The notes beneath the pieces are model-generated. The model searched no databases. It was not told the origin of the DNA and saw nothing but the letters and a program-made list of their open reading frames with translations. A stretch of 64,000 bases of DNA from Cellulosimicrobium cellulans (GTDB lineage Bacteria; Actinomycetota; Actinomycetes; Actinomycetales; Cellulomonadaceae), in contig NZ_JAFBCN010000001.1 of assembly GCF_016907755.1 (NCBI RefSeq), forward strand, positions 2,232,001 to 2,296,000, written 5' to 3'. The position numbers and the translations under genes were made by a program. Shown in pieces: positions 1,064-15,314 of the stretch; the stretch's first letter is position 1; every line of letters starts with the position of its first letter.

Positions 1064-2734
1064 TCAGACGACGTCGCAGGCGGCGCCGTCGAGCGTGAAG
1101 GAGCTCGGCTCGGTGTTGATCCCGGAGTGGGAGCCGTTGAAGCCGACGTCCACGCTCGCACCCGCGCCGAGCGTGGTGTTCCACGGCGCCGGCGTGACGG
1201 TGACGCTCGAGCCCTGCTGGGCGTACTGCGCGGACCAGCCCTGGGTGACGGTCTGCCCGTCCGGGAAGGCGAACGTCAGGGTCCAGCCGTGCAGCGCGAC
1301 GGCCGAGTCGTTGGTGATCCTGAGGGACCCGGTGAATCCGGTGTTCCAGGAGCTCGCCGCGTAGGCGACGGTGCAGGCCCCGGTGGGTCCGCCGCCAACC
1401 TCCGCGGTCTCGCCGGTCACGGTGCCGGACGTCGCGGAAGCGTTGCCCGCCGCGTCGACCGCCCGCACCGCGTAGACGTGCGAGGCGCCCGCCGCGAGGC
1501 CGGTGTCGGTGAACGACGTCCCGGAGACCTCGGCGACCTGGGTCCCGTCGCGGTACACGCGGTAGCCCGCGACGCCGACGTCGTCGCTCGAGGCGTTCCA
1601 CCCGAGCGAGATCGAGGAGGTCGTGGTGCCGGAGACTCGCAGGCCGGTCGGGGCCGACGGCGCCTGGTCGTCGCCGCCCGGTCCGTCGTCCTGGGCGCCG
1701 AGGACCTCGGCGATCGCCGCGTACGCGGGCTTGGGCGCGTACGCGTCGTCCCAGACGAGCGCGGCGCCCTGACCCGGGAAGACGCCCGGGATCCACGAGT
1801 ACCTGTCGGTGATGCCCCACAGCGTCACGCCCGTGCAGCGGTCGACGTCGAGGCAGGCCTGGAAGACCTTCGCGTAGTCGGACGCCTGCTGCGCGAGCCT
1901 CGACGCGTCGGCGGGGGTGTTCATGCGGATGTCGAGCTCGGTGATGCGCACGTCCACGCCGAGGTCGGCGAACCGCTGGAGGTTCTGGGTCAGCGTCGAC
2001 GGGACCTGGCCGACGATCAGGTGCGCCTGGAACCCGACGCAGTCGATCGGCACACCGCGAGACGTGAAGTCGGCGACGAGGTCGTAGATCGCCGTGCTCT
2101 TCGCGTTGATCCCGTCGGTGCTGTAGTCGTTGAGGCACAGGTCGGCGTCCGGGTCGGCAGCCCGCGCGGCGCGGAACGCGTCCTCGATGTAGCCGTCTCC
2201 GAGCCGCTGCTGGAAGACGCTCTGCCGTCGGGAGCCGTCGTCCTCGAAGGCCTCGTTGACGACGTCCCACGCCTCGACGTCGCCGGCGAAGTGCCCGGCG
2301 ACGGCGCGGACGTGGTCCGTCATGGCGGTACGCAGGTCCGCGCCCGTCAGGCCCTGGACCCACCCGGGGAGCTGTTGGTGCCACACGAGCGTGTGCCCGT
2401 AGAGGTCCGCGCCCTGCGCGGCCGCGTAGCTCGCGACCTGGTCCGCGGCCCCCCAGGAGAACGAGCCCCGGGAGGGTTCGGTCGCGTCCCACTTCATCGC
2501 GTTCTCCGCGACGACGAGCGAGAACTCGCGGTCGGCGACCGCCTGGTAGCTGCTCTCGGAGAGCCGGCCGGGGTCGAGCGCGAAGCCGATGGTCCTGCCG
2601 TGCCTGGCCGCGGCGTCGCCGAGCGGCTCGGTGGCGGCGGTCGCGGTCGTGGCGACCGGGAGGACGGTCGCGGCGACGAGCGCCGTGGTCGCGAGCGTCG
2701 TCGCGAGAGATCGTCTGAAGCTGGTGCTGCTCAT
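1064..2734 (-). CDS. Secreted GH10 endo-1,4-beta-xylanase with FN3 and CBM2 domains
   Basis: A 556-residue secreted enzyme predicted to cut xylan internally. Residues 1-34 form a signal peptide (basic RR, hydrophobic core, Ala-rich end). Residues 35-350 are the GH10 barrel: acid/base Glu161 in WDVVNEAF and nucleophile Glu266 in ITELDI, plus the substrate-subsite motifs HTLVWHQQ and LWGITD. A short GPGGDDQ linker leads to one FN3 domain (about 355-445) and a C-terminal CBM2 (about 455-556), which opens with ACTVAY and closes with a Cys. The start ATG has GGAGAG seven bases upstream. The gene lies 87 bp downstream of the GH6 gene on the same strand but behind a strong hairpin, so it probably has its own promoter. 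A 16-bp AT-rich palindrome sits just before the start. The FN3-CBM2 tail is nearly the same as that of the GH6 enzyme. Confidence 0.96.
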
Positions 2735-2821: not shown

Positions 2822-5125
2822 TCAGCTGACGGTGCAGGCGGCGCCGTTCAGGGTGAAGGACGTGGGCTCGGTGTTGGTCCCGGCGTGGGACCCGTTGAAG
2901 CCGACCTCGACGCTCGCGCCCGCGCCGAGGGTGGTGTTCCACGCGGCGGGGGTCACGGTGACGGTCGAGCCGGACTGCGCGTACTGGGCGGACCAGCCCT
3001 GGGTGATCGTCTGGCCGTCCGCGAAGGAGAACGTCAGGGTCCAGCTCTGCAGGGCGGCGGCGGAGTCGTTGGTGATCCGCAGCGACCCCGTGAAGCCGGT
3101 GTTCCACGAGCTCGCGGTGTACGCGACGGTGCACGCACCGGGGGTGCCGCCCCCGTCCTGCGCCGTCGTGCCGGTCACGGTGCCCGACGTGGCGGACACG
3201 TTGCCCGCGGCGTCGAACGCCCGCACCGCGTAGACGTGCGCGGTGCCCGCCGCGAGGCCGGTGTCCGTGTACGACGTCGCGGTCACCTGCGCGACCTGCG
3301 TCCCGTCCCGGAAGACCCGGTAGCCGGTGACGCCGGTGTCGTCGGTGGACGCGTTCCACGCGAGCGCGACCGTGGAGGTCGTCACGCCGGAGACGCGCAG
3401 CCCGGTCGGGGCGGACGGCGCCTGGTCGTCGCCGCCGGGGCCGCCGTCCTCGTCCGTGGTCACGGTGAGCGGCGCGGACGCGGCGGAGACGTTGCCCGCG
3501 GCGTCGCGCGCGCGGACGGTCACGGCGTAGGACGTGCCCGCGTCGAGGCCGGTGACCGTGAACGAGGTCGTGGCCGTCGTACCCACGGCCGCGCCGTCGA
3601 CGAGCACGGTGTAGCCCGTGACGCCGCGGTCGTCGGTGGACGCGGTCCAGCTCACGCTCGCCGACGTCGTCGTGGTCGCGACGGCCGTGAGGCCCGTCGG
3701 GACCGACGGCGGGGTCGTGTCCGCCGGCCCGCCGCTCCCGTCGCCCTCGATCGCCGGGTAGGCGTTCTCGACGAGCATCCGGAACTGGGACTCGAACCAC
3801 TGGCCCGCGAGCGGGGCGTCAGGCAGGGCGCCGGTCAGCTGGTTGGCGAGCTTGGGCGAGACGAACGTCGGGTCGCACATGCGGTCGAACCGCTTGCCCT
3901 GGTCGTTCGGGATGTCGGACGACGCGCCGTCGGACTCGCCCGGAGGCTTGACCCACACGTAGGCGTGCAGGTGCGACTCAGGGAAGCCCGCGGGCGAGGC
4001 CTGCGGGCGCTCGCCGATCCCGGCGCCGGCCGGGTTGCACCACGCGCCGCGGTGGATCCGCCGGTCGACGCGCGACTCGTCCACGTAGGTGTTGAGGGTC
4101 GTCGACGTGCTCACCGCCGTCGGGCGGTCGTCGCCGCCCCAGCCGTTGCGCGAGGTGTCGACGAGCATGCCGATCGACGTCGGGAAGCCCTCCGCCACGA
4201 GCAGGTCGTAGAGGTGCGCCGTCCAGTCGGTCTCGTCGAAGTCGGCGTTCCACTCGTAGAAGCTCGCCGAGCGCACGGGCGTGCTGCCGAGCTGGACGTC
4301 CTCGAGGAACGGCTCGTGCAGCGGCGTGGAGTTGGCCGTGTTCGTGACGAACCCCGCGACCGACGCGTAGCCCGCGTCCGTCGACAGCACGACCTCCTTG
4401 AAGAGCTTCGCCGCCGGGCCGCCGTTGCTCGGCCAGCCGAGCCAGCCGGCGTGCGCCGCGTCGATGTAGGAGTACACGTTGCCGACGTCGTGGAGCGCGT
4501 CCAGCGCGTACTTCACGCCCTCGCGGTAGTACGGCGCCGACGCCTGGCAGTCGGGCGTGCTGATGTTCGTGATGAGGTTCGGCAGCGAGTCCGGCTCGAT
4601 GGTCGCGACGACGCGCAGGTCCTCGTAGGCGGGGTCGTCGAGGATGTCGGCGATGACGTCGATGTACTCGGTCTCGTACCGCGCCATGTCCGTCGCGTTC
4701 GGCTTGAGCTCGCCGTTGGACGCGAGCGCGTAGCAGTCGCGGCCGGGCAGGTCGTAGATCACGAGGTTGAAGACCATCGGCACGCCGGGCTGCTTCTGCG
4801 CGATCGCGGCGTCGAGGTGGTGCCGCAGGCCCGGGCCGTCGGCGTTGCCCTCGATCGCGCTGATGCGGTCCATCCAGACCGCGGTGGGCTCGTCGGCGAT
4901 GGCTCGCATGCGGGACCCGAGATCGCCGCCGGCTCGGTCGGCGGCGGCGGCGACGTTGGCGGACCAGAACTCGTTGACGTACTGCGTGGCACCGGCGAAC
5001 GGGTTGCTCACGCGAGGTTCGGCGGCGCTCGCCGGCGCGGCGGCCGCGACCAGCGGGGCGGCGAGCAGCGCGAGCGACGCGACGACGGCCGCGCCCCTGC
5101 GCGGTCGACTGGATCGGGATGGCAC
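2822..5125 (-). CDS. Secreted GH6 cellobiohydrolase with two FN3 domains and CBM2
   Basis: A 767-residue secreted cellulase, probably an exo-acting cellobiohydrolase releasing cellobiose from non-reducing chain ends (family knowledge; the long catalytic domain with loop insertions fits exo enzymes). The chosen start is GTG 5125, with TTGGAGGA five bases upstream; an in-frame start at 5167 lacks this. Residues 1-35 are a signal peptide ending ASA. The catalytic domain spans about 36-450 and shows the GH6 signatures YDLPGRDC (Asp of RDC) and IEPDSLPN (catalytic acid Asp). Two FN3 domains follow, then CBM2. An AAACGTTT-core palindrome lies about 100 bp upstream, at the end of the adjacent LacI gene, which suggests direct control by that regulator. 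Confidence 0.96.
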   Translation of the reverse strand: MPSRSSRPRRGAAVVASLALLAAPLVAAAAPASAAEPRVSNPFAGATQYVNEFWSANVAAAADRAGGDLGSRMRAIADEPTAVWMDRISAIEGNADGPGLRHHLDAAIAQKQPGVPMVFNLVIYDLPGRDCYALASNGELKPNATDMARYETEYIDVIADILDDPAYEDLRVVATIEPDSLPNLITNISTPDCQASAPYYREGVKYALDALHDVGNVYSYIDAAHAGWLGWPSNGGPAAKLFKEVVLSTDAGYASVAGFVTNTANSTPLHEPFLEDVQLGSTPVRSASFYEWNADFDETDWTAHLYDLLVAEGFPTSIGMLVDTSRNGWGGDDRPTAVSTSTTLNTYVDESRVDRRIHRGAWCNPAGAGIGERPQASPAGFPESHLHAYVWVKPPGESDGASSDIPNDQGKRFDRMCDPTFVSPKLANQLTGALPDAPLAGQWFESQFRMLVENAYPAIEGDGSGGPADTTPPSVPTGLTAVATTTTSASVSWTASTDDRGVTGYTVLVDGAAVGTTATTSFTVTGLDAGTSYAVTVRARDAAGNVSAASAPLTVTTDEDGGPGGDDQAPSAPTGLRVSGVTTSTVALAWNASTDDTGVTGYRVFRDGTQVAQVTATSYTDTGLAAGTAHVYAVRAFDAAGNVSATSGTVTGTTAQDGGGTPGACTVAYTASSWNTGFTGSLRITNDSAAALQSWTLTFSFADGQTITQGWSAQYAQSGSTVTVTPAAWNTTLGAGASVEVGFNGSHAGTNTEPTSFTLNGAACTVS

Positions 5126-5224
5126 GTGGTCCTCCAAGGGTCCGGGAGCGCGGACGGGTCCGCGCACCGGGCGGCTCTGCCCGGCGGGGACAACGTGACG
5201 AACCCGGGCCGTCGTCGGCTACCG

Positions 5225-5239
5225 CCTGAAACGTTTAGG
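5225..5239. promoter_or_regulatory. Putative LacI-type operator upstream of the GH6 gene
   Basis: CCTGAAACGTTTAGG has a perfect AAACGTTT core and shares GAAACGTTT with the site before the GH48 gene. A central CpG palindrome is typical of LacI-family operators. It lies 100-114 bp upstream of the GH6 start and overlaps the TAA stop of the LacI gene (5235-5237). An AT-rich 8-mer like this is rare in such DNA, and I noticed only two copies, both upstream of exo-cellulase genes. Binding by the neighbouring LacI protein is inference. Confidence 0.55.
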
Positions 5240-6371
5240 CGCCGCGCGGTGGCGCGGTCGTCCCCCGCAGGAGGAGGCGCGCGGCCGGGCGCTCGCGATC
5301 GACCGCCGGGCGGGTCGTGGCGGGGTCGGCGTCGGGGCGCGCGACCGGGCGCCCGAGGCCCAGCCGTGCGACGACGACGTCCGCGACGTGCGCTCCGAGC
5401 CGCTGGAACGGCCGGTGCACGGCGGTGAGCGCGGGCGCGACGAGCCGGCACGTCGCGGAGTCCTCGCCGGACAGCACCGACAGGTCCCACGGCACCTCGA
5501 GCCCCTGGCCCCGCCCGGCCTCGAGCACGGCGAGCGCAGCGACGTCCGTGTCGGTGAGCACGGCGGTGGGACGCGAGTCGTGCGCGACCAGCCGCGCCGC
5601 GCGCGAGCGCGTCTCCTCCCACGTGCGGCACTCGACGACGTCGACCCGGGTCTCCGGGCCGCCCGCGTCGCGCGCCGCCGCGACCAGGGTGCGCGCGAGC
5701 TCGTCCTGCGCGTCCGAGACGAGGACGGCGATCCGGCGGTGGCCGAGCTCGACGAGGTAGCGGGCCGCGCGGGCGTCCGCGTCGCCCGCGAACCAGGTCC
5801 GCACGCCGGGCGTGGCAGGGTCGGACGGGCCGGGCGTGACCTCGACGAGCGGGATCACGGCCTCGCGTGCTGCCCGGATCCGGGGGTCGCGCGCGTGGGC
5901 GTCGACCACGACGTACGCCGCGTGCCGCCGCTCGGACCAGCCTGCCTCGAGCTCCCGGGCGCCCTCGTCGCGGTCGTCGGTGACCTCGAGGCCGAGGGCG
6001 AGGTCGTGCTCCGTGAGGACGGCACGCATGCCCGCCGCGAGCGCCAGGGCGCGGTTCGGTCCGGCGGCCCCCTCGGCGGCGTGGACGACCTGGAGCGCCA
6101 CGCTGCGGGCGCTGGAGCGCAGCGAGCGGGCGGCCGCGCTCGGCCGCCAGCCGAGGTCGGCCGCGGTGCGCAGGACGTGCCGGCGGGTGCGCTCGGACAC
6201 CCCCGGCCGGCCGTTGAGGGCGTAGGAGACGACGGCGATCGACACCCCCGCCGCACGGGCGACGTCGGTGATCGTGATGCGCCGTGCGCTCGGACCGACG
6301 GCGCCGTGCGAGGCCGGTCCCGGGGACGAGTTGGTGGTCACGCTCCCACACTGTGCCCGGTTTGGGTGCAT
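5235..6371 (-). CDS. LacI-family transcriptional regulator
   Basis: A 378-residue regulator. Residues about 32-80 hold the LacI helix-turn-helix and hinge (ITITDVARAAGVSIAVVSYALNG, broken here as ITITDVARAAGVS and AVVSYALNG), followed by a sugar-binding effector domain to about residue 365. LacI proteins next to cellulases, such as CebR and CelR of other actinobacteria, repress in the absence of cello-oligosaccharides; that role is inferred here. The start may be ATG 6371 (GGTAGG upstream) or GTG 6341, which would still keep the whole DNA-binding domain. It is divergent from the sensor gene, with only about 30 bp between the two longest forms, and is followed 109 bp later by the GH6 gene, so readthrough is possible. 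Confidence 0.93.
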   Translation of the reverse strand: MHPNRAQCGSVTTNSSPGPASHGAVGPSARRITITDVARAAGVSIAVVSYALNGRPGVSERTRRHVLRTAADLGWRPSAAARSLRSSARSVALQVVHAAEGAAGPNRALALAAGMRAVLTEHDLALGLEVTDDRDEGARELEAGWSERRHAAYVVVDAHARDPRIRAAREAVIPLVEVTPGPSDPATPGVRTWFAGDADARAARYLVELGHRRIAVLVSDAQDELARTLVAAARDAGGPETRVDVVECRTWEETRSRAARLVAHDSRPTAVLTDTDVAALAVLEAGRGQGLEVPWDLSVLSGEDSATCRLVAPALTAVHRPFQRLGAHVADVVVARLGLGRPVARPDADPATTRPAVDRERPAARLLLRGTTAPPRGA

Positions 6372-6400
6372 GATGCCTACCAGGACTCGGTGACGATGAC

Positions 6401-9190
6401 GTGACGGGGACGGTGACGAGGATGTCGACGGACGCGACGAGGCGCCCGAGACAGGCGGGGGAGCACCTGACGTTCGGTGTGCTGTGCCCCGTGGTCGGAG
6501 GGTTCTACTTCGGGCGGTCCCTGGCGGGGATCGCCCGGGTCCTGCGGGCGCACGGGCACCGGGTGGTCGCCCTCCAGACCTACCCGGCGGACCTCGACCG
6601 CGACGAGTTCCCGGGACCGCCGGGCCGGCGGCCCCTGCTGGGGCGCTCGTCGTTCGACGGGTTCGTCGTGATGACGACGGCGCTCGCCGACGCCGAGCTG
6701 CGCGAGCTCGACGCGTCAGGCGTCCCGCTCGTGCTCCTGGGGGTGCGCGCGGACGGGCTGCGCGCGCCCGCGGTGTCCCCGGACAACGCGGGTGGCGTCC
6801 GCGCCGCCGTCGACCATCTCGTGGAGCACGGTCACGACCGCATCGGGTTCGTCGGCAACACCGAGCAGCGCGACACGCTCGAGAGGTACGACGCGTACCG
6901 TGCGGCGCTGGCCGCGCACGACCTCGCCTTCTCTCCCTCGTGGGTCTACCGCACGCGCGACAACCAGGAGGCGAGCGCCGAGGCCGCCGCGCGTCGGCTC
7001 GCGTCCCGCGGCCTGCCGACGACGGCGACGCTCGCCGCGACCGACCGCAACGCCATCGGCTTCATGCGGGGCCTGCAGGCCAGCGGGTTCGAGCTGCCCG
7101 CGGAGCAGGCCGTGGTCGGGTTCGACCACGCCGACTCGGGGGCGCGGGCGCGGCCCCGGCTCTCGACCGTCGACCCGCTGCACGACCAGGTCGGCGAGCG
7201 GGTCGCCGAGCTGCTCGTCGCGCGGGCACGCGGGGAGAACGTCGGCCGGGAGCACCGGCTGGGTCGCGCGGCCCTCATCCGGCGCGAGTCGTGCGGGTGC
7301 CTGGAGGGCACGCAGGGCGAGCTCATCGGCGGACCGGCCGCCCGGGTGGCGGCCGTGTCGGCGCCCGCGGACCCGGACCGGCCCCTCGACGAGGTCGCCC
7401 GGGTGGTCTTCGCCTCCGTCCTGGAGCGGTCCGACGTGCGCGGCGTCCAGCGCCGGCGCGCGTCGGACGGCGGCCAGCGCCCGGCTCCGGTCGACGCGTG
7501 GCTCCTGGTGCTGCGGCACCTGCTCCGGGGTGCCGCGGAGTCGGGCGTGGTGCCCCCGGCGGCGGCGCTGCGCTCGCTCGCGGACCGGACCGCGGCGCTG
7601 CGCCCGTCGCAGGAGGCGCTCGAGCAGATCGTGCCCGCGCTCGAGGCCGAGGTCGCCGCGCTCGTCCGGGAGGTGCGACGGCGCCGCCCGGTGGTGCGTG
7701 CGTCCCAGCTCGGTCGGACCGTGCTGTCGCGCAGCACCCACCGGGACCCCCCGGCGAGCTCCGCGGTCACGCGGGCCGACGCCGTCCGGGCGACCGCGGC
7801 CGAGGTGGTCGTCGCCGTCGCCCGGGGGTGCGCGCATGGCGCGGTCGCGCGCACGGGGCGGCTCGAGCAGGACCTGGTGGACCTCTACGAGGTCGACCTC
7901 GGCCTGCTGCGCGGCGACGGGGAGGGGCTGCGTCGCCTCGACTGGCTGCCGCGCGGCGTCGGCGGGACGGCGGCGCTCGCGCTGTGGGAGGACGCCGACG
8001 ACGGCTTCGGCCGCCGCGTGCTGCGGGTCGTCGGCGTCCGCGGCGGTGGGACGGCCGTCGAACGGCTCGCGGGGTCGGTCCTCGCGACGGCGCAGTTCCC
8101 TCCCCGCGAGCTCCTCGACCCGCGGTCGCTCACGGTCGTCGCGCCGGTCGCGTTCGGTCGGTCCGACTGGGGGTTCCTCGTGGTGGGCGGCCTCGTGGAC
8201 ACGCGCACGACGAGCACCCGCGAGCGGTACAACCACTGGGCGGCCATGCTCGCGGTCGCGCTGGACCGGGAGGCCCTGGTCACCTCGCTGCAGGAGCAGC
8301 AGCACGCGCTCGCCGACTCGGCCGAGCGCGTGCGCGCGCTGGCGCTCGAGGTCGAGGCGGGGGCCGAGCGCGCCGCGCTCGTGTCCATCGCGTCCCACGA
8401 CGGGACGTGGGACTGGGACGTCGAGACGGGGACCGTGCGCTGGTCGCCGGCGTGGGCCCGCATCGTGGGCTGCGACGTGGCCGACCTCCGGGACGACCCC
8501 GAGGAGTGGCTCGGCCGGGTGCACCCGGAGGACCTGCAGACCGTCCACGCCGCGGTCGCCGCGCAGCTCGCGGGCACGACGGAGCCGCTCGACGTCGAGC
8601 ACCGGCTGCGGTGCGCCGACGGCGAGCACGTGCGGGTCCGCTGCCGTGCCGTGACCGTGCTCGACGCCGGCGGGCGCCCGGCCCGCATGGTCGGCGCGCT
8701 CGCCGTCCTGTCCGACGTCGAGCGGTACCGCAGCGAGCTGCGCGGGCGGGCGCTCGTCGACCCCGACTCGGGCGTGCTGCACCGCTCGCTGTTCGTCGAC
8801 CGGCTCGAGCAGGCGATCGGTCGCGGTGGGCGGGTCCCGGGATACGGCGCGCACGTGCTCGCCGTCGGGCTCGACGCGCCGCCGACGGTCCCCGCGCTGC
8901 ACCGGCTCGCCGGCGCGCTGGGCGCCGCGGGCTCGCTGTGCGCGCTGGCGCCGACCGACCTCGTCGTGCTCCTCGACGGTGTGTCCGACGACGCCGCCCG
9001 CCACGCGGCGGTGCGTGCGGCGGGGGCGTGCGGGTCCGCCGTCGTCGAGCACCTGGGGGACGTCACGGGGGCGCCGGACGCGCTCGAGGTCCTGCGCCGC
9101 GCCGGGGTGGCGCTCGCGCGTCGGCGGGCGCGCGCGCTCGGCACGGTCGTGCCGTGGTCGGCGCCGTCCGAAACGTTTCGCGCGTTGTGA
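6401..9190 (+). CDS. HTH-less LacI-type sensor fused to PAS and degenerate GGDEF domains
   Basis: A 929-residue cytosolic protein with no signal peptide or membrane helix. Residues about 22-300 match the LacI/periplasmic-binding sugar fold (FGVLCPVVGGFYFG, HDRIGFVGN, VVGFDHAD), but there is no helix-turn-helix before it. Residues about 330-620 are a helical and possibly GAF-like region. A helical stretch (625-660) leads to a PAS domain (about 660-780, DGTWDWDVETG and VHPEDL). The tail (785-925) begins like a GGDEF domain (DPDSGVLHRSLFVDRLEQA), but where RLGGDEF should occur it reads CALAPTDLVVLL, so cyclase activity is unlikely. The start is GTG 6401 or ATG 6422; the latter follows GGGGA. Its 3' end carries an operator-like site before the GH48 gene. 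Probably a cytosolic sugar and redox or ligand sensor for the cellulase locus (inference). Confidence 0.85.
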   Translation: MTGTVTRMSTDATRRPRQAGEHLTFGVLCPVVGGFYFGRSLAGIARVLRAHGHRVVALQTYPADLDRDEFPGPPGRRPLLGRSSFDGFVVMTTALADAELRELDASGVPLVLLGVRADGLRAPAVSPDNAGGVRAAVDHLVEHGHDRIGFVGNTEQRDTLERYDAYRAALAAHDLAFSPSWVYRTRDNQEASAEAAARRLASRGLPTTATLAATDRNAIGFMRGLQASGFELPAEQAVVGFDHADSGARARPRLSTVDPLHDQVGERVAELLVARARGENVGREHRLGRAALIRRESCGCLEGTQGELIGGPAARVAAVSAPADPDRPLDEVARVVFASVLERSDVRGVQRRRASDGGQRPAPVDAWLLVLRHLLRGAAESGVVPPAAALRSLADRTAALRPSQEALEQIVPALEAEVAALVREVRRRRPVVRASQLGRTVLSRSTHRDPPASSAVTRADAVRATAAEVVVAVARGCAHGAVARTGRLEQDLVDLYEVDLGLLRGDGEGLRRLDWLPRGVGGTAALALWEDADDGFGRRVLRVVGVRGGGTAVERLAGSVLATAQFPPRELLDPRSLTVVAPVAFGRSDWGFLVVGGLVDTRTTSTRERYNHWAAMLAVALDREALVTSLQEQQHALADSAERVRALALEVEAGAERAALVSIASHDGTWDWDVETGTVRWSPAWARIVGCDVADLRDDPEEWLGRVHPEDLQTVHAAVAAQLAGTTEPLDVEHRLRCADGEHVRVRCRAVTVLDAGGRPARMVGALAVLSDVERYRSELRGRALVDPDSGVLHRSLFVDRLEQAIGRGGRVPGYGAHVLAVGLDAPPTVPALHRLAGALGAAGSLCALAPTDLVVLLDGVSDDAARHAAVRAAGACGSAVVEHLGDVTGAPDALEVLRRAGVALARRRARALGTVVPWSAPSETFRAL
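9169..9180. promoter_or_regulatory. Putative LacI-type operator upstream of the GH48 gene
   Basis: CGAAACGTTTCG is a perfect 12-bp palindrome, 117 bp before the GH48 ATG. It lies within the last codons (S-E-T-F-R) of the preceding sensor gene. It shares GAAACGTTT with the site upstream of the GH6 gene. Control by the nearby LacI protein is inferred. Confidence 0.6.
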
Positions 9191-9296
9191 GAGCCCGGCG
9201 TCCCCGCCGAGAGTCGATCGACCCGCGGGGGTGGGGACGCCGACGACGGCGTCCTCGTGACCGCCGCCGCGGGGCTCGACGACGAGAGGGAGCACG

Positions 9297-12020
9297 ATGC
9301 CACGCACGTCCCGGCGCGCAGCGCCACCACCCACCGCCCCGCACGCGCGAGCCGCGCGGGGGCGGCGTACGACGGCCGCCGCGCTCGCCGCGGGCGTCGT
9401 GCTCGCGGCCCTCGCCGCGGTCCCGCCGGCGAGCGCCGACCCTGCGGCACCACGGTCCACGTCGACGGCGGGCACGGCCGTGGCGCTCGTCGACGGCGAG
9501 TACACGCAGCGGTTCCTCGAGCTGTACGCGAAGGTCCACGACCCCGCGAACGGCTACTTCTCGCCCCAGGGCATCCCGTACCACGCGGTCGAGACGCTCA
9601 TGGTGGAGGCGCCGGACTACGGGCACGAGACGACGTCGGAGGCGTACTCCTTCTGGCTGTGGCTCGAGACGTCGTACGGTCAGGTGACCGGTGACTGGGA
9701 GCCGTTCAACCACGCGTGGGACACGCTCGAGGCGTACATGATCCCCACCACGGAGAACCAGCCCACCAACGGGGCGTACGACCCGGCCAAGCCCGCGACG
9801 TACGCGCCGGAGTTCAACCACCCGAGCCAGTACCCGTCGCAGCTCGACACGTCGGTGTCCGTCGGCACCGACCCGATCGCGGCCGAGCTGCGGTCGACCT
9901 ACGGCACGCCCGAGGTCTACGGAATGCACTGGCTCGCGGACGTCGACAACGTGTACGGCTTCGGTGCCGCACCGGGCTCCTCGACGCTGCTCGGGCCGGA
10001 CCACGAGGGCACGTCGTACATCAACACGTTCCAGCGCGGCCCGCAGGAGTCCGTCTGGGAGACGGTGCCCCAGCCGTCGATCGACGACTTCAGCTACGGC
10101 GGCGAGAACGGCTACCTCGACCTCTTCACGGGCGACGCGTCCTACGCGAAGCAGTGGAAGTACACCAACGCGCCCGACGCCGACGCGCGCGCGGTCGAGG
10201 CGGCCTACTGGGCGAACAAGTTCGCGACCGAGCAGGGCCAGCCCGAGGCCGTCGCCGACACGGTCGGCAAGGCCTCGAAGATGGGCGACTACCTGCGCTA
10301 CGCGCTGTTCGACAAGTACTTCAAGACGCCGGGCTGCGAGTCCACGTCGTGCGCCGCGGGGTCGGGCCGGAGCAGCGCGCACTACCTGCTGTCCTGGTAC
10401 TACGCGTGGGGCGGGGCGCTCGACACGTCCGGCCCGTGGGCCTGGCGCATCGGGTCGAGCCACGCGCACTTCGGGTACCAGAACCCGATGGCGGCCTGGG
10501 CGCTCGCGAACGACCCGGCGCTCCAGCCCGCGTCGCCGACGGCGAGCGACGACTGGGGCACGAGCCTCGACCGGCAGATCGAGCTCTTCCAGTGGCTCCA
10601 GTCGCCCGAGGGCGGGATCGCGGGCGGCAGCACGAACTCGTGGGACGGCCACTACGCCGACCGCCCCGACGACGTCGCGACGTTCTACGGCATGGCGTAC
10701 ACCGAGGCGCCCGTCTACCACGACCCGCCGTCCAACTCGTGGATGGGCATGCAGGGCTGGGGGGTCGAGCGCATCGCGCAGCTCTACGAGGAGACGGGCG
10801 ACGAGCGCGCCGAGGCGATCCTCGACAGGTGGGTGCCGTGGGTGATGGACCACGTCACGGTCACGGACGACTCCTGGCAGATCCCGTCCAACCTCGCGTG
10901 GTCGGGCCAGCCCGACGACTGGGACCCCGAGAACCCGGGCGACAACGCGGGCCTGAGCGTCGAGGTGACGGGCTACGGCCAGGACGTCGGCGTCGCCGGC
11001 GCGCTCGCGCGCTCGCTCATGTACTACGCGGCCGGCGGCGAGGGCCCGCAGCACGACGCGGCGCAGCAGGTCGCGCGCGAGCTGCTCGACGCGATCTGGG
11101 AGCAGAACAGCGACCCGGTCGGCGTCGCGACGACCGAGACGCGGGCGGACTACGCGCGCTTCGACGACGTCCTGACGTCGACCACGGGCGACGGGACGTA
11201 CGTACCGGCCGGGTGGACGGGGACCATGCCGAACGGCGACGTGATCGAGCCGGGCGCGTCGTTCCTCGACCTGCGGTCGTTCTACCTCGACGACCCGCAG
11301 TGGTCGAAGGTCGAGGCGCACCTCGACGGCGGGCCGGCCCCGGAGTTCACGTACCACCGGTTCTGGGCCCAGACCGCGGTCGCGACGGCGCTCGCCGACT
11401 ACGACCGCCTGTTCGGCGAGGACGTCCCGACGGAGCCGGACACCGAGGCGCCCACGACGCCGGCCGACCTCGCCGTGACGGGGACGACGGCCACGACCGC
11501 GTCGCTCGCGTGGACGGCGTCGACGGACGACGTCCGCGTGGTCGCGTACGACGTGCTGCGCGACGGGGAGGTGGTGGGCTCCACGCCGCGCACGACCTTC
11601 ACGGACGAGGACCTCACGCCCGAGACGACCTACCGGTACACGGTGCGGGCGCGCGACGCGGCGGGCAACCTCTCGCCGGTGTCCCTGGGGGCGCAGGCCA
11701 CGACGCTCGCGGACGACGGCGGCCCGGAGCCGGGGGCCTGCACCGCGACCTACCGGACGGCCGGGTCGTGGCAGGGCGGGTACCAGGGCGAGGTCACGGT
11801 CACGGCCGGCGCCTCCGGCGTCTCGGGCTGGACCGTGACGCTCGACCTCGCGCCGGGTGGCCTGTCGCAGGCGTGGAACGCGACGACCAGCGTGAGCGGG
11901 AGCGTCCTGACCGCGACGAACGTCGGCTGGAACGGCACGCTCGCCGCCGGCGGGACGACGTCGTTCGGGTTCATCGGGACGGGCGCGCCGCCGTCGTCAC
12001 CGGCGGTCGCGTGCGGCTGA
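9297..12020 (+). CDS. Secreted GH48 exocellulase with FN3 and CBM2 domains
   Basis: A 907-residue secreted processive cellulase acting on the reducing ends of cellulose chains (family knowledge). The signal peptide covers about residues 1-47 (RRAAPP, long basic n-region, Ala/Val core, ending ASA). The GH48 catalytic domain covers about 60-705: the proposed catalytic acid lies in HETTSEAYSFWLW, and PQGIPYHAVETLMVEAPDYG is diagnostic. An FN3 domain (about 717-800) and a divergent C-terminal CBM2 (about 815-907, SGWTVTL and VGWNGTLAAGG) follow. GAGGGAG precedes the ATG. GH48 and GH6 enzymes usually act together on crystalline cellulose, which suits their shared operator-like sites. The gene ends against tesB at a bidirectional terminator. 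Confidence 0.97.
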   Translation: MPRTSRRAAPPPTAPHARAARGRRTTAAALAAGVVLAALAAVPPASADPAAPRSTSTAGTAVALVDGEYTQRFLELYAKVHDPANGYFSPQGIPYHAVETLMVEAPDYGHETTSEAYSFWLWLETSYGQVTGDWEPFNHAWDTLEAYMIPTTENQPTNGAYDPAKPATYAPEFNHPSQYPSQLDTSVSVGTDPIAAELRSTYGTPEVYGMHWLADVDNVYGFGAAPGSSTLLGPDHEGTSYINTFQRGPQESVWETVPQPSIDDFSYGGENGYLDLFTGDASYAKQWKYTNAPDADARAVEAAYWANKFATEQGQPEAVADTVGKASKMGDYLRYALFDKYFKTPGCESTSCAAGSGRSSAHYLLSWYYAWGGALDTSGPWAWRIGSSHAHFGYQNPMAAWALANDPALQPASPTASDDWGTSLDRQIELFQWLQSPEGGIAGGSTNSWDGHYADRPDDVATFYGMAYTEAPVYHDPPSNSWMGMQGWGVERIAQLYEETGDERAEAILDRWVPWVMDHVTVTDDSWQIPSNLAWSGQPDDWDPENPGDNAGLSVEVTGYGQDVGVAGALARSLMYYAAGGEGPQHDAAQQVARELLDAIWEQNSDPVGVATTETRADYARFDDVLTSTTGDGTYVPAGWTGTMPNGDVIEPGASFLDLRSFYLDDPQWSKVEAHLDGGPAPEFTYHRFWAQTAVATALADYDRLFGEDVPTEPDTEAPTTPADLAVTGTTATTASLAWTASTDDVRVVAYDVLRDGEVVGSTPRTTFTDEDLTPETTYRYTVRARDAAGNLSPVSLGAQATTLADDGGPEPGACTATYRTAGSWQGGYQGEVTVTAGASGVSGWTVTLDLAPGGLSQAWNATTSVSGSVLTATNVGWNGTLAAGGTTSFGFIGTGAPPSSPAVACG

Positions 12021-12046
12021 CCCCCGGCTGACATCCCGCTGAAGAC

Positions 12047-12085
12047 GGTCCGCCTCCCGGCGCTCACAGCGCCGGGAGGCGGACC
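12047..12085. terminator. Bidirectional terminator between GH48 and tesB
   Basis: A perfect 18-bp stem (12047-12064 and 12068-12085) with a 3-base loop. It lies 26 bp after the GH48 stop and overlaps the last codons and stop of the convergent tesB gene. Confidence 0.8.
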
Positions 12086-13017
12086 ATGCCCTCCTGCGCG
12101 ATGGACGCGACGAGCGTCCCGTCCTGCGCGAACACGCGTGCCGCCCCGAGCCCGCGGCCGCCCTGGGCGCTCGACGCCGACTGCACGTAGAGCAGCCAGT
12201 CGTCGACCCGCGCGTCGCGGTGCCACCACATGGCGTGGTCGAGGCTCGCGATCGAGATGCCGGGCGTGACCCAGCTCGTGCCCGACTCGCGGAGGATCGG
12301 CTCGAGCATCACCTGGTCGCACGCGTAGGCCATGAGCGCACGGTGCAGCAGCTGGTCGTCGCCGACGTCGCCCCGCGCCCGCATCCACACCATCTGGTGG
12401 TCCGTGGGCTCGTGGTCGGGACCGAGGTAGAGCGAGCCGCCGACGTGCCGCAGCTCGAACGCCGAGTGGTGCGACCAGAAGCGTGCGATCGGGTGGTCGA
12501 TGCCGCCGAGCACGTCGAGGGCGGACCGCACGTCCTCCGGCGGCGGGGCGTCGGGCATGGGCGACGAGTGCTCGATGCCGCCCTGGTCCTCCTGGAACGA
12601 GGAGATCATCGACAGGATCGGCTTGCCGTGCTGGATCGCGTGCGTCCGGCGCGCGCTGAACGAGCGCCCGTCGCGCAGCCGCTCGACCGCGAAGTCGATC
12701 GGCACGTCGAGGCCGCCGGGCCGCAGGAAGTACCCGTGCAGCGAGTGGGGGAGACGGCCCTCGGGCACGGTGCGCCCGGCGGCGAGCACGGCCTGCGCGA
12801 GCACCTGGCCCCCGTAGACCCGGCCCGTCGGCTGGTGGACGCTCTCGCCGCGGAAGTGCTCGGGGTCGGCGGCGGACCCGTCACCGTCACCGACCCGCTC
12901 GAGGCGCAGGACGTCGAGGAGGTGGTTCAGCGGGTTGGGGACCTGCTCGCGCGGGGCGGCGTCCGACGTCGGGCCGGGGGAGGCCGAGGAGGGCGGCGGC
13001 GTGGGCTCGGGGGTCAC
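12064..13017 (-). CDS. tesB: Acyl-CoA thioesterase II (TesB family)
   Basis: A 317-residue protein predicted to hydrolyse acyl-CoA to free fatty acid and CoA in the cytosol. After a disordered Pro/Ser-rich N-terminus of about 25 residues it shows the double hot-dog fold of TesB: FRGESVHQPTGRVYGGQVLAQA in the first half (given in parts: GRVYGGQVLAQA is the key signature), HSLHGYFLRPG, then the second hot dog with SLDHAMWWHRD and the catalytic-region LLYVQSASSAQGGRGLGAARVF. Length is slightly above the usual 285-290, owing to the N-terminal tail. The ATG has GGAGC upstream. The globin gene lies 33 bp upstream on the same strand, so the two may be cotranscribed. Confidence 0.93.
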   Translation of the reverse strand: MTPEPTPPPSSASPGPTSDAAPREQVPNPLNHLLDVLRLERVGDGDGSAADPEHFRGESVHQPTGRVYGGQVLAQAVLAAGRTVPEGRLPHSLHGYFLRPGGLDVPIDFAVERLRDGRSFSARRTHAIQHGKPILSMISSFQEDQGGIEHSSPMPDAPPPEDVRSALDVLGGIDHPIARFWSHHSAFELRHVGGSLYLGPDHEPTDHQMVWMRARGDVGDDQLLHRALMAYACDQVMLEPILRESGTSWVTPGISIASLDHAMWWHRDARVDDWLLYVQSASSAQGGRGLGAARVFAQDGTLVASIAQEGMVRLPAL

Positions 13018-13050
13018 GGGTGGGGCTCCTTCGCTCGGGCGGCGGGTCGG

Positions 13051-13527
13051 TCAGTCCTCGAAGGTGTTGAGGAGCGAGTGCGCCGCGCGCTCCAGATAGT
13101 CCCACAGCGTCGCCTCGTGGATCGGTGCGAGGTCGAGGGTGTCGACGGCGGCGCGCATGTGGGCGAGCCAGCGGTCCCGCGCCTCGGGGTTGACCTTGAA
13201 CGGGGCGTGCCGCATCCGCAGGCGCGGGTGCCCGCGCTGCTCGCTGTACGTCGTCGGGCCACCCCAGTACTGCTCGAGGAACGCCGTCAGGCGCCAGCGC
13301 GCGGGGCCCAGGTCCTCCTCGGGGTACATCGGGCGCATGACCGGGTCGTCGGCGACGCCCTCGTAGAACGCGTCGACGAGGCGCACGAACGTCTCGTGGC
13401 CGCCGACCTCGTCGTAGAACGTGCGGCTCGGGCGCACCGGCGCGGCGTCGGTCGTCGGGCCGGTCGTCGGGCCGTTCGACAGGCCGGCGACGGGCAGCGT
13501 CGTGCGGGGGCTGGGCTCGGTCGTCAC
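13051..13527 (-). CDS. glbO: Group II truncated hemoglobin
   Basis: A 158-residue globin of the trHbII/GlbO type. After about 35 poorly conserved residues it shows FYDEVGGHETF (helix B region), MRPMYPEEDLGPA, FLEQYWGGP, then HPRLRMRHAPF, where the second His is the proximal heme ligand, and ARDRWLAHM with the Trp-G8 typical of the group. Such proteins bind O2 and take part in NO or peroxide chemistry; the exact role here is unknown. The start GTG 13527 gives the shortest sensible N-terminus. The gene sits between ptsI and tesB on the same strand, 33 bp before tesB. Confidence 0.93.
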   Translation of the reverse strand: MTTEPSPRTTLPVAGLSNGPTTGPTTDAAPVRPSRTFYDEVGGHETFVRLVDAFYEGVADDPVMRPMYPEEDLGPARWRLTAFLEQYWGGPTTYSEQRGHPRLRMRHAPFKVNPEARDRWLAHMRAAVDTLDLAPIHEATLWDYLERAAHSLLNTFED

Positions 13528-13610
13528 CGGCCCATCATCGCACCGGCGTCGCCGTCGTCCGGGCCGCGCGCGGCGACCCGGACGCACGTCACAGCGCGCG
13601 CCGGCGCGCG

Positions 13611-15314
13611 TCAGAGACCGAGCTCGGTGAGCACCGGCAGGTTCTCGCGGACGACGGCGCGAGCCTCGGCCGCGCTCTCGGCCTCGACGGCGAGCCGCGC
13701 GAGCCGCCGGCACTCGTCGACGTCGACCTCGCGCAGGAGCGCGGCGACGTCGGGGATCGCCCGGGCCGTCATGGAGAGCGACGACACCCCGAGCCCCACG
13801 AGCACGACGGCCAGCACCGGCTGCGAGGCCGCCTCGCCGCACACGCCCACGGGCCGACCCTGCTGCGCGCCGCCCGCGCACGTGGCCTCGACGAGCCGCA
13901 GCACCGCGGGCTGCCACGGGTCGCTCAGCTCGGCGAGCGACCCGAGAAGACGGTCGGCCGCCATCGTGTACTGCGTGAGGTCGTTCGTGCCGATCGACGC
14001 GAACGACGCGCGCGCGAGGATCGGCCCGGCGAGCAGCGCGGCGCTCGGGACCTCGACCATGACGCCCGCGACGTCGAGCCCGTGGGCACGGCAGCGCTCG
14101 ACGAACCACTCCGTCTCGCCGACGGTCGACACCATGGGCGCCATGACCCAGACCTCGGCCTCCTCCGCGGCGGCGGCCTGCGCGATCGCGTCGAGCTGCT
14201 GCTCGAGCAGCTCGGGCCACCGCGCGGCGGTGCGCAGCCCGCGCACGCCCAGCGCGGGGTTCTCCTCGTCGTCGACCGTGAGGAAGTGGAGCGGCTTGTC
14301 CGCGCCGGAGTCGAGCGTGCGGATGACGACCTTGCGCCCGCCGAACTCGCGGAACACCGTGCGGTAGGCGGTGACCTGCTCCTCGACCGTCGGCGGCTGC
14401 TCGCGGTCGAGGAAGCAGAACTCCGAGCGGAACAGCCCGACGCCCTCGGCGCCGGCCGCGGCGGCCGGCGCCGCGCCCGCGGGGTCGCCGACGTTCGCGA
14501 GGAGCTGGACGCGGTGCCCGTCGCGCGTGCGGCCGGTGCCGTCGAACGTGCGTACCTGCAGCGAGCGCGCCCGCGCTGCGGCGACCTGCTCCTCGGACGG
14601 GTGCACGACCACGGTCCCGGCGGCGCCGTCGACGAGGACGACGTCCTCCGGCGCGAGCGCCGCGCTCGCTCCCGTCGCGGCGACCACGGCCGGGATGCCC
14701 TTGGCGTTGGCGACGATGGCGGTGTGCGACGTCGGGCCGGCGCCGTCGGTGACGATCGCGAGCACGCGCGCCGGGTCGAGGGCAGCGGTGGCCGACGGCG
14801 CGAGGTCGGGCGCGACGAGCACGAACGGCTCCGCGTGCTCCGGGACCCCGGGCGCGGGGCGGTCCGTGAGCGCGGCGACGAGCCGGTCGCGCACGTCGGC
14901 GACGTCGCGGGCGCGCTCGGCGAAGTACCCGCCGAGCTCGGTGAACTGCCGCACGACCTCCTCCGCCGCCTCCCAGACCGCGCGCTCGGGCACCAGGTGC
15001 TCGTCGAGGACGCGGCGCCGCGCGTCGGCCGCCAGGGTGGGGTCGCCGGCCATCGCGGCGGTCGCCTCGAGCACGTCGCGCGTCTCGCCGTCGGCGGCGT
15101 CCGCGGCGCGCTGGAGGTCGGCGGCGACCTGCGCGGCCGCGGCGTCGACGCGACGCGCCTGCGCCTCGTGGTCCTCGCGCGGGCCCATCCGCAGCCCGGG
15201 TGCCGGCTCCGCGATCGGCTCCGGCATGAGCACCACCGGCCCGACCACCGTGCCGGGGCACACACCGATTCCCGTGATGACCTGCCGTGCCTCGTCCTGG
15301 GTTCCGCCCGTCAC
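13611..15314 (-). CDS. ptsI: Phosphoenolpyruvate-protein phosphotransferase (PTS enzyme I)
   Basis: A 567-residue enzyme that autophosphorylates with PEP and passes the phosphate to HPr. The start GTG 15314 is preceded by AGGAG eight bases away; longer in-frame forms add junk-like sequence. The active-site His is in GAGPTSHTAIVA, in the N-terminal half. The C-terminal PEP-binding barrel shows EGVGLFRSEFCF, RTLDSGADKP, GVRGLR and SIGTNDLTQYTMAADR, and the catalytic Cys is in GVCGEAAS. Length matches the family (about 560-575). It is divergent from a standalone glucose-type EIIB gene about 245 bp away, suggesting shared PTS control. HPr is not in the window. Confidence 0.97.
   Translation of the reverse strand: MTGGTQDEARQVITGIGVCPGTVVGPVVLMPEPIAEPAPGLRMGPREDHEAQARRVDAAAAQVAADLQRAADAADGETRDVLEATAAMAGDPTLAADARRRVLDEHLVPERAVWEAAEEVVRQFTELGGYFAERARDVADVRDRLVAALTDRPAPGVPEHAEPFVLVAPDLAPSATAALDPARVLAIVTDGAGPTSHTAIVANAKGIPAVVAATGASAALAPEDVVLVDGAAGTVVVHPSEEQVAAARARSLQVRTFDGTGRTRDGHRVQLLANVGDPAGAAPAAAAGAEGVGLFRSEFCFLDREQPPTVEEQVTAYRTVFREFGGRKVVIRTLDSGADKPLHFLTVDDEENPALGVRGLRTAARWPELLEQQLDAIAQAAAAEEAEVWVMAPMVSTVGETEWFVERCRAHGLDVAGVMVEVPSAALLAGPILARASFASIGTNDLTQYTMAADRLLGSLAELSDPWQPAVLRLVEATCAGGAQQGRPVGVCGEAASQPVLAVVLVGLGVSSLSMTARAIPDVAALLREVDVDECRRLARLAVEAESAAEARAVVRENLPVLTELGL

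Follow-up and report, generated by a model that had tools for sequence, protein, structure and literature searches.

A LacI-type sensor with a degenerate GGDEF domain paired with a divergent LacI-family repressor among the cellulase genes of Cellulosimicrobium cellulans

A 64,000-nucleotide stretch of Cellulosimicrobium cellulans DNA (the window, positions 2232001 to 2296000 of a single 4,788,922-base contig) contains a pair of divergently transcribed genes set among cellulase genes. The rightward gene codes for a sensor that is a LacI/GalR-type effector domain of the Peripla_BP type without a DNA-binding helix-turn-helix (HTH), joined to GAF-like, PAS, and GGDEF-derived parts; the leftward gene codes for a LacI-family protein (the partner LacI) that carries both an HTH and an effector domain (PF00356 and PF13377). 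The two are inherited together almost without exception and are divergently paired, the sensor has lost its catalytic motif, the LacI HTH and a candidate operator are conserved, and the operator is placed at cellulase genes. We put at about even the chance that the locus is a two-protein cellulase control unit, in which LacI represses and the sensor perceives a sugar and alters the hold of LacI on DNA; binding of the partner LacI to the candidate operators (supported by covariation), the sensor-LacI contact, its sign, and sugar binding by the sensor are the parts that we infer. A sequence-only reading of the window had suggested that the sensor acts on LacI, which is now the best-supported interpretation; as regards pairing and operators, the case has become stronger than it was at first, with the molecular link between the two proteins still inferred.

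The sensor and its LacI partner

The sensor gene is taken to start at the codon where the conserved Met of the orthologs aligns, which is also the start picked by the gene model. Pfam matches to the protein are Peripla_BP_3 (residues 137 to 298, E = 4.6e-27) and PAS_3 (residues 679 to 766, E = 8.2e-20), and the sugar-binding domain matches the structure of CelR with cellobiose (5ysz) with 70 bits by sequence and 31% identity in a fold alignment. There is no HTH match in the sensor at E<=1 (Pfam, with PF00356 sought) and none in the displayed N termini of its orthologs, no Pfam GGDEF match in the sensor of the window, and no NCBIfam model that reaches its cutoff. No membrane helix is evident, since the highest 19-residue Kyte-Doolittle mean is 1.76; two hydropathy segments exceed 1.6, both in the GGDEF-derived part. 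The earlier description of a soluble, HTH-less LacI-type protein with PAS and degenerate GGDEF domains, divergent from a true LacI with an HTH, is thus borne out by Pfam, alignment, and fold matches.

The pair is conserved across genera. A profile search with the middle region of the sensor in 221 genomes of the family gives matches in 120 at E<=1e-10, and the best 90 (E<=2.2e-46, with the next at 1.9e-39) are close orthologs with 13 genus labels. A partner LacI profile, built from 29 partner LacIs and run on the same genomes, identifies 89 at E<=4.2e-111, with a clear gap to the next best at 4.2e-96. The sensor is present in 90 genomes and the partner LacI in 89, all of which have both; 88 of the pairs are divergent and adjacent, and one (G082) lies across two contigs. 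A partner LacI without the sensor was never found in these 221 genomes and a sensor without its partner only once, in G186 (83% complete), both profiles having been built from such pairs so that far-drifted partners could escape. Among 396 genomes drawn from the order, matches outside the family are distant only (best, 1.1e-45).

Sixty distinct sensors beside a partner LacI were compared (58 and a further two of a lower-GC genus), at loci that include near-identical strains. A GH6 gene is directly beyond LacI at 54 of these, and three of the other six (L035, L040, and L051) have part of a GH6 gene where the contig ends. A GH48 gene is located 3' of the sensor in Cellulosimicrobium, Isoptericola, L118, L119, and L133. 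Ortholog conservation, co-occurrence, and gene order together argue that the pairing is more than chance. The genes could travel together as a cellulose island with no functional contact, as GH48 and the locus share one presence pattern within the genus (both in 9 of 17 genomes and neither in 8). This is very improbable, however, because the divergent sensor-LacI-GH6 order is stable across genera while the genes further out vary, and the examined Cellulomonas flanks have no GH48 catalytic domain that could be seen, though the pair is present.

Candidate operators at cellulase genes

Both candidate operators in the window (AAACGTTT) are LacI-type palindromes with a central CG. The pattern TAAWCGNTT is present upstream of GH6 in 49 of 52 loci, and a looser form in 51, versus 5 of 10,400 shuffled upstream regions. 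The 4.79-Mb genome has AAACGTTT in six places only, four of which precede cellulase genes (GH9, GH6, GH48, and a second GH6); the remaining two are upstream of a LacI-ABC-ADP-ribosylglycohydrolase-PfkB operon that is unrelated to cellulose. Two further AAACGATT sites are near ABC-transporter and Usp genes and near an MFS gene, respectively. A YTAAACGNTTM pattern, which misses several GH6 sites, was run on three other genomes; four of the five distinct sites in G202 precede GH6, second GH6, LPMO10, and GH5 genes, and the one site in G058 is upstream of GH9.

These sites fit a motif reported from Cellulomonas flavigena in 2012, CNAA(T/A)CGNTTA/C, with 15 sites that are unrelated to CelR and stand before almost all cellulases (PMC3377646, as far as its available text goes). 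The fit extends to the motif before GH6, GH48, GH9, LPMO10, GH5, and GH62 genes; the difference is that the available text names no regulator, whereas our proposal is a LacI with a partner sensor, which gives that site a testable regulator. CelR-like sites (TGGGAGCGCTCCCA type, with one mismatch or fewer) number 12 in the C. cellulans genome, with none at the four cellulase palindromes. Two one-mismatch CelR-like sites lie 44 bases apart in G000, at 1195661 and 1195705.

The partner LacI likely binds the TAAWCGNTT-type cellulase sites, as covariation of protein and site suggests. Its recognition helix is VS[IT]AVVSY at 59 of the 60 loci and VSISVVSY at the other, and no AAACGTTT is present at the locus of L148, the closest LacI-family paralog in the genome. 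A TTA right end is present in 7 of 12 loci with the Thr helix versus 0 of 39 with the Ile helix (Fisher p = 7e-6), and AATCG in 5 of 12 versus 2 of 39 (p = 0.005), in a test that ignores shared ancestry, which weighs against the assignment. Other observations do so too: only two of the five YTAAACGNTTM sites in G115 precede carbohydrate-enzyme genes (GH9 and GH62); the operator motif is in none of 58 divergent LacI/sensor promoters, so that autoregulation is not seen; and within the genus GH48 occurs in exactly the genomes with the locus, so that sites disappearing along with it are uninformative as to the binder.

The missing promoter site, together with the AAACGTTT core that is common to the sites of the LacI in the operon noted above (LacI2, with two GGAAACGTTTCC sites), would also suit a scheme in which LacI2 or another LacI-family protein binds the cellulase palindromes and the pair acts elsewhere. 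We regard this as improbable. The LacI2 operon codes for ABC transport, ADP-ribosylglycohydrolases, and a PfkB kinase and has no cellulose functions, and the GG/CC flanks of its sites are missing at the four cellulase sites; moreover, site variation tracks the recognition-helix residue of the partner LacI, the LacI-GH6 order is kept, and the window site overlaps the LacI stop codon. The two LacI2 sites (L074 9527 and 9562; genome 4754526 and 4754561) are 35 bases apart, and AAACGTTT pairs 34 to 35 bases apart are also present in G001, G008, G009, and G010, members of the genus without the cellulase locus.

The putative sugar site and the decayed GGDEF domain

The sensor is likely the ligand-binding half of the pair, as comparison of key residues suggests. 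LacI D274 is the canonical sugar-contact residue. An Asp equivalent to it is present in 59 of 60 sensors (the exception, L026, is a piece of a split gene) and in 18 of 19 other LacI-type proteins encoded in the genome, but in none of 60 partner LacIs, all of which have also lost the aromatic residue preceding this position. Compared over a single set of 28 loci, the LacI HTH has a mean identity of 0.83, the LacI effector domain 0.43, and sensor residues 60 to 293 0.58. In one Cellulosimicrobium genome the sensor frame is in two pieces (L016/L017 and L026), through mutation or assembly error.

Other features of the partner LacI weigh against a decayed pocket. The Asp equivalent to D275 is kept in 60 of 60, 43 of 60 align an Arg at the Arg197-equivalent position, and the alignment has an invariant Trp265, so this LacI may have its own ligand; in addition, a solved stand-alone LacI-family protein (4o5a) also aligns without an Asp at the D274 position.

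The sensor C terminus derives, as judged from alignment and a structure model, from a GGDEF domain. CALAPTDLVVLL occupies the place of the GGDEF signature at 8939 to 8974 of the window, where the Cellulomonas counterpart reads RIAEDDFVVLL, and modeled residues 763 to 905 match solved GGDEF domains. The PF00990 cutoff (23.8 bits) is exceeded by all five Cellulomonas orthologs scanned (L029, 34.9; L030, 39.1; L038, 32.5; L048, 39.1; and L044, 25.0 bits), and neither the window sensor nor the one Isoptericola ortholog scanned (L025) has a match. The orthologs beside the partner LacI do not look like ordinary active diguanylate cyclases, as GG[DE]EF is retained in 0 of 60. The domain is gone in 10; where it persists, an RxxD precedes the ruined signature in 27 orthologs and is missing in 23, the window sensor among the latter. 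The spacing of the RxxD (e.g., in L033) is that of an inhibitory I-site for cyclic di-GMP (c-di-GMP). With the catalytic motif absent throughout and the domain itself missing from 10 orthologs, c-di-GMP synthesis is an unlikely output of the sensor.

The more distant relatives sampled are intact. L136, L138, L140, and L205 combine Peripla_BP_3, GGDEF, and EAL; two L206 proteins, L201, and L200 have Peripla_BP_3 and GGDEF; and all of these sampled proteins, together with tandem copies in L134, keep GG[DE]EF. EAL has no match in the sensor orthologs scanned. Motif loss in the orthologs together with the intact distant relatives means that the sensor is best seen, from these comparisons, as a soluble protein descended from Peripla_BP-PAS-GGDEF(-EAL) c-di-GMP enzymes, a retired member of that enzyme family whose catalytic motif is lost. 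The domain order itself, which had been called rare, is not, because the distant actinobacterial relatives scanned share Peripla_BP_3-(PAS_3)-GGDEF or -GGDEF-EAL with intact motifs; the unusual feature is that a lost catalytic motif goes with a LacI partner that is fixed. The L134 copies are three sensor relatives in tandem (3997 to 14297), all of which retain the GGDEF motif intact and also have an EAL-like motif. At L205 (2264 to 8554), which belongs to a different family within the order, the gene for a Peripla_BP-GGDEF-EAL protein with GGDEF intact is divergent from that of a LacI other than the partner LacI, and a GH6 gene stands beyond, an arrangement that may be an ancestral or a parallel link among a sensor relative, a LacI, and GH6.

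The residue patterns and the enzyme ancestry can be combined, tentatively and with somewhat less than even confidence, into a split LacI, a single cellulose regulator whose sugar sensing and DNA binding have come to reside in separate proteins. The sugar pocket of LacI would have decayed, and the part of obligatory ligand-sensing half across the Cellulomonas/Cellulosimicrobium family would have passed to a retired c-di-GMP enzyme that has a LacI-type pocket and, in addition, GAF and PAS inputs. Alternatively, the LacI could be a normal repressor that acts by itself and whose ligand has changed, with the sensor as a separate sugar- or nucleotide-gated receptor or scaffold in c-di-GMP signaling, merely co-selected with cellulose use. 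The effector-domain residues that LacI retains would agree with this, as would the I-site-like RxxD in 27 of the 50 orthologs that keep the domain and the prevalence of PBP-clan domains in GGDEF/EAL proteins (PMC8846402, available text). This alternative is nonetheless unlikely, as RxxD is absent from the other 23, LacI stays beside the sensor even at the 10 loci where the GGDEF-derived domain is gone, and the pair is so rarely broken in the 221 genomes, by the sensor once and by LacI never.

For the two-protein control unit, a mechanism can be proposed. LacI would bind TAAWCGNTT-type operators of GH6, GH48, GH9, and other cellulase genes and repress them; the LacI-type domain of the sensor would bind a sugar, most likely one released by cellulose breakdown, and the GAF-like and PAS domains would supply a second input; and the sensor would contact LacI directly and change its hold on DNA, most likely as an anti-repressor that frees the cellulase operators. 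The same partners could act with the opposite sign, with the sensor as a sugar-dependent co-repressor or LacI as an activator, and nothing in the sequence fixes the sign. We think such a reversal rather improbable, given that LacI/GalR members are commonly repressors (PMC6828939) and that BluF, the closest degenerate-enzyme precedent, is an antagonist (PMC3509220), both as stated in the available texts.

Related systems and other features of the locus

The sensor/LacI pair itself was not found described in searches of open-license papers. In Escherichia coli, BluF, a degenerate EAL protein proposed to stem from a light-regulated phosphodiesterase, directly antagonizes the repressor BluR (PMC3509220). 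The likeness is a sensor with a degenerate c-di-GMP enzyme domain whose gene adjoins that of a DNA-binding repressor; however, BluF-BluR involves blue light, EAL, and a MerR-like partner rather than sugar, GGDEF, and LacI, and antagonism there is direct, whereas contact between sensor and LacI is our proposal. If the sensor does work on LacI, the pair would be another case after BluF-BluR in which a dead c-di-GMP enzyme has become the ligand-sensing half of a transcription switch, here for sugar, and would offer a handle for controlling cellulase induction. Thermobifida fusca CelR (5ysz; PMC3377646) is likewise LacI-type and provides cellobiose-responsive cellulase control, and the sensor sugar domain matches it; CelR, however, joins its HTH and sugar domain in a single chain and uses a TGGGAGCGCTCCCA-type site, a type not seen at the four cellulase palindromes.

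Actinobacterial Peripla_BP-(PAS)-GGDEF(-EAL) enzymes share domain order and sequence ancestry with the sensor, but those scanned keep GG[DE]EF and several have EAL, whereas the sensor orthologs have lost the motif and have a fixed LacI partner. The Actinoplanes amlR-amlE-ACSP50_2473 cluster also brings together a LacI-type repressor, a glycoside hydrolase, and a GGDEF-EAL protein, and feedback on the LacI has been suggested (PMC6828939); ACSP50_2473 differs in its conserved GGDEF, its EAL, and its predicted membrane helix, the available text reports no sugar-binding domain in it, and the cluster concerns maltose and not cellulose. A degenerate GGDEF can also sense GTP, as for FimX (PMC8846402), and by analogy GTP sensing by the Cellulomonas versions of the sensor is possible.

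Table 1. Coordinates of the sensor, its partner LacI, candidate operators, and neighboring genes in the window
Feature	Position	Strand	Basis or remark
GH10-CBM2 xylanase-type gene	1064..2734	-	
GH6-CBM2 cellulase gene, 3' of LacI	2822..5167	-	Pfam; gene model start 5011
Candidate operator AAACGTTT (CCTAAACGTTTCAG on - strand), 5' of GH6	5229..5236	.	TAA stop of LacI gene belongs to the site
Partner LacI-family repressor gene	5235..6371	-	Pfam PF00356 and Peripla_BP_3 (PF13377)
HTH of partner LacI, recognition helix VSIAVVSY	6138..6275	-	Pfam PF00356
HTH-less sensor gene	6401..9190	+	929-codon open reading frame; probable start ATG 6422, giving 922 amino acids
LacI/Peripla_BP-type sugar-binding domain	6464..7300	+	Residues 15-293 of 922; Pfam, PDB sequence matches, fold match 14-293
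Helical linker, GAF-like domain (about 446-600), long helix (about 601-655)	7301..8386	+	
PAS_3 domain	8387..8725	+	Residues 656-768
Degenerate GGDEF-derived domain	8726..9142	+	Residues 769-907; alignment, ortholog PF00990 matches, fold matches 5m3c/4yme
Candidate operator AAACGTTT (CGAAACGTTTCG), 5' of GH48	9171..9178	.	Within last sensor codons
GH48-CBM2 cellulase gene, 3' of sensor	9297..12020	+	Pfam

A GH9 gene is located just to the left of the window and outside it. The nearest named relatives of the sensor are from Cellulosimicrobium cellulans strains (92 to 94% identity) and C. funkei. The divergent promoter region between LacI and the sensor contains a conserved block, GTGGTCACGCTCCCACACTGT, at 6334..6354; its Cellulomonas form is TGTGA-N6-TCAC, present in 15 of 58 regions, which resembles a CRP/GlxR site.

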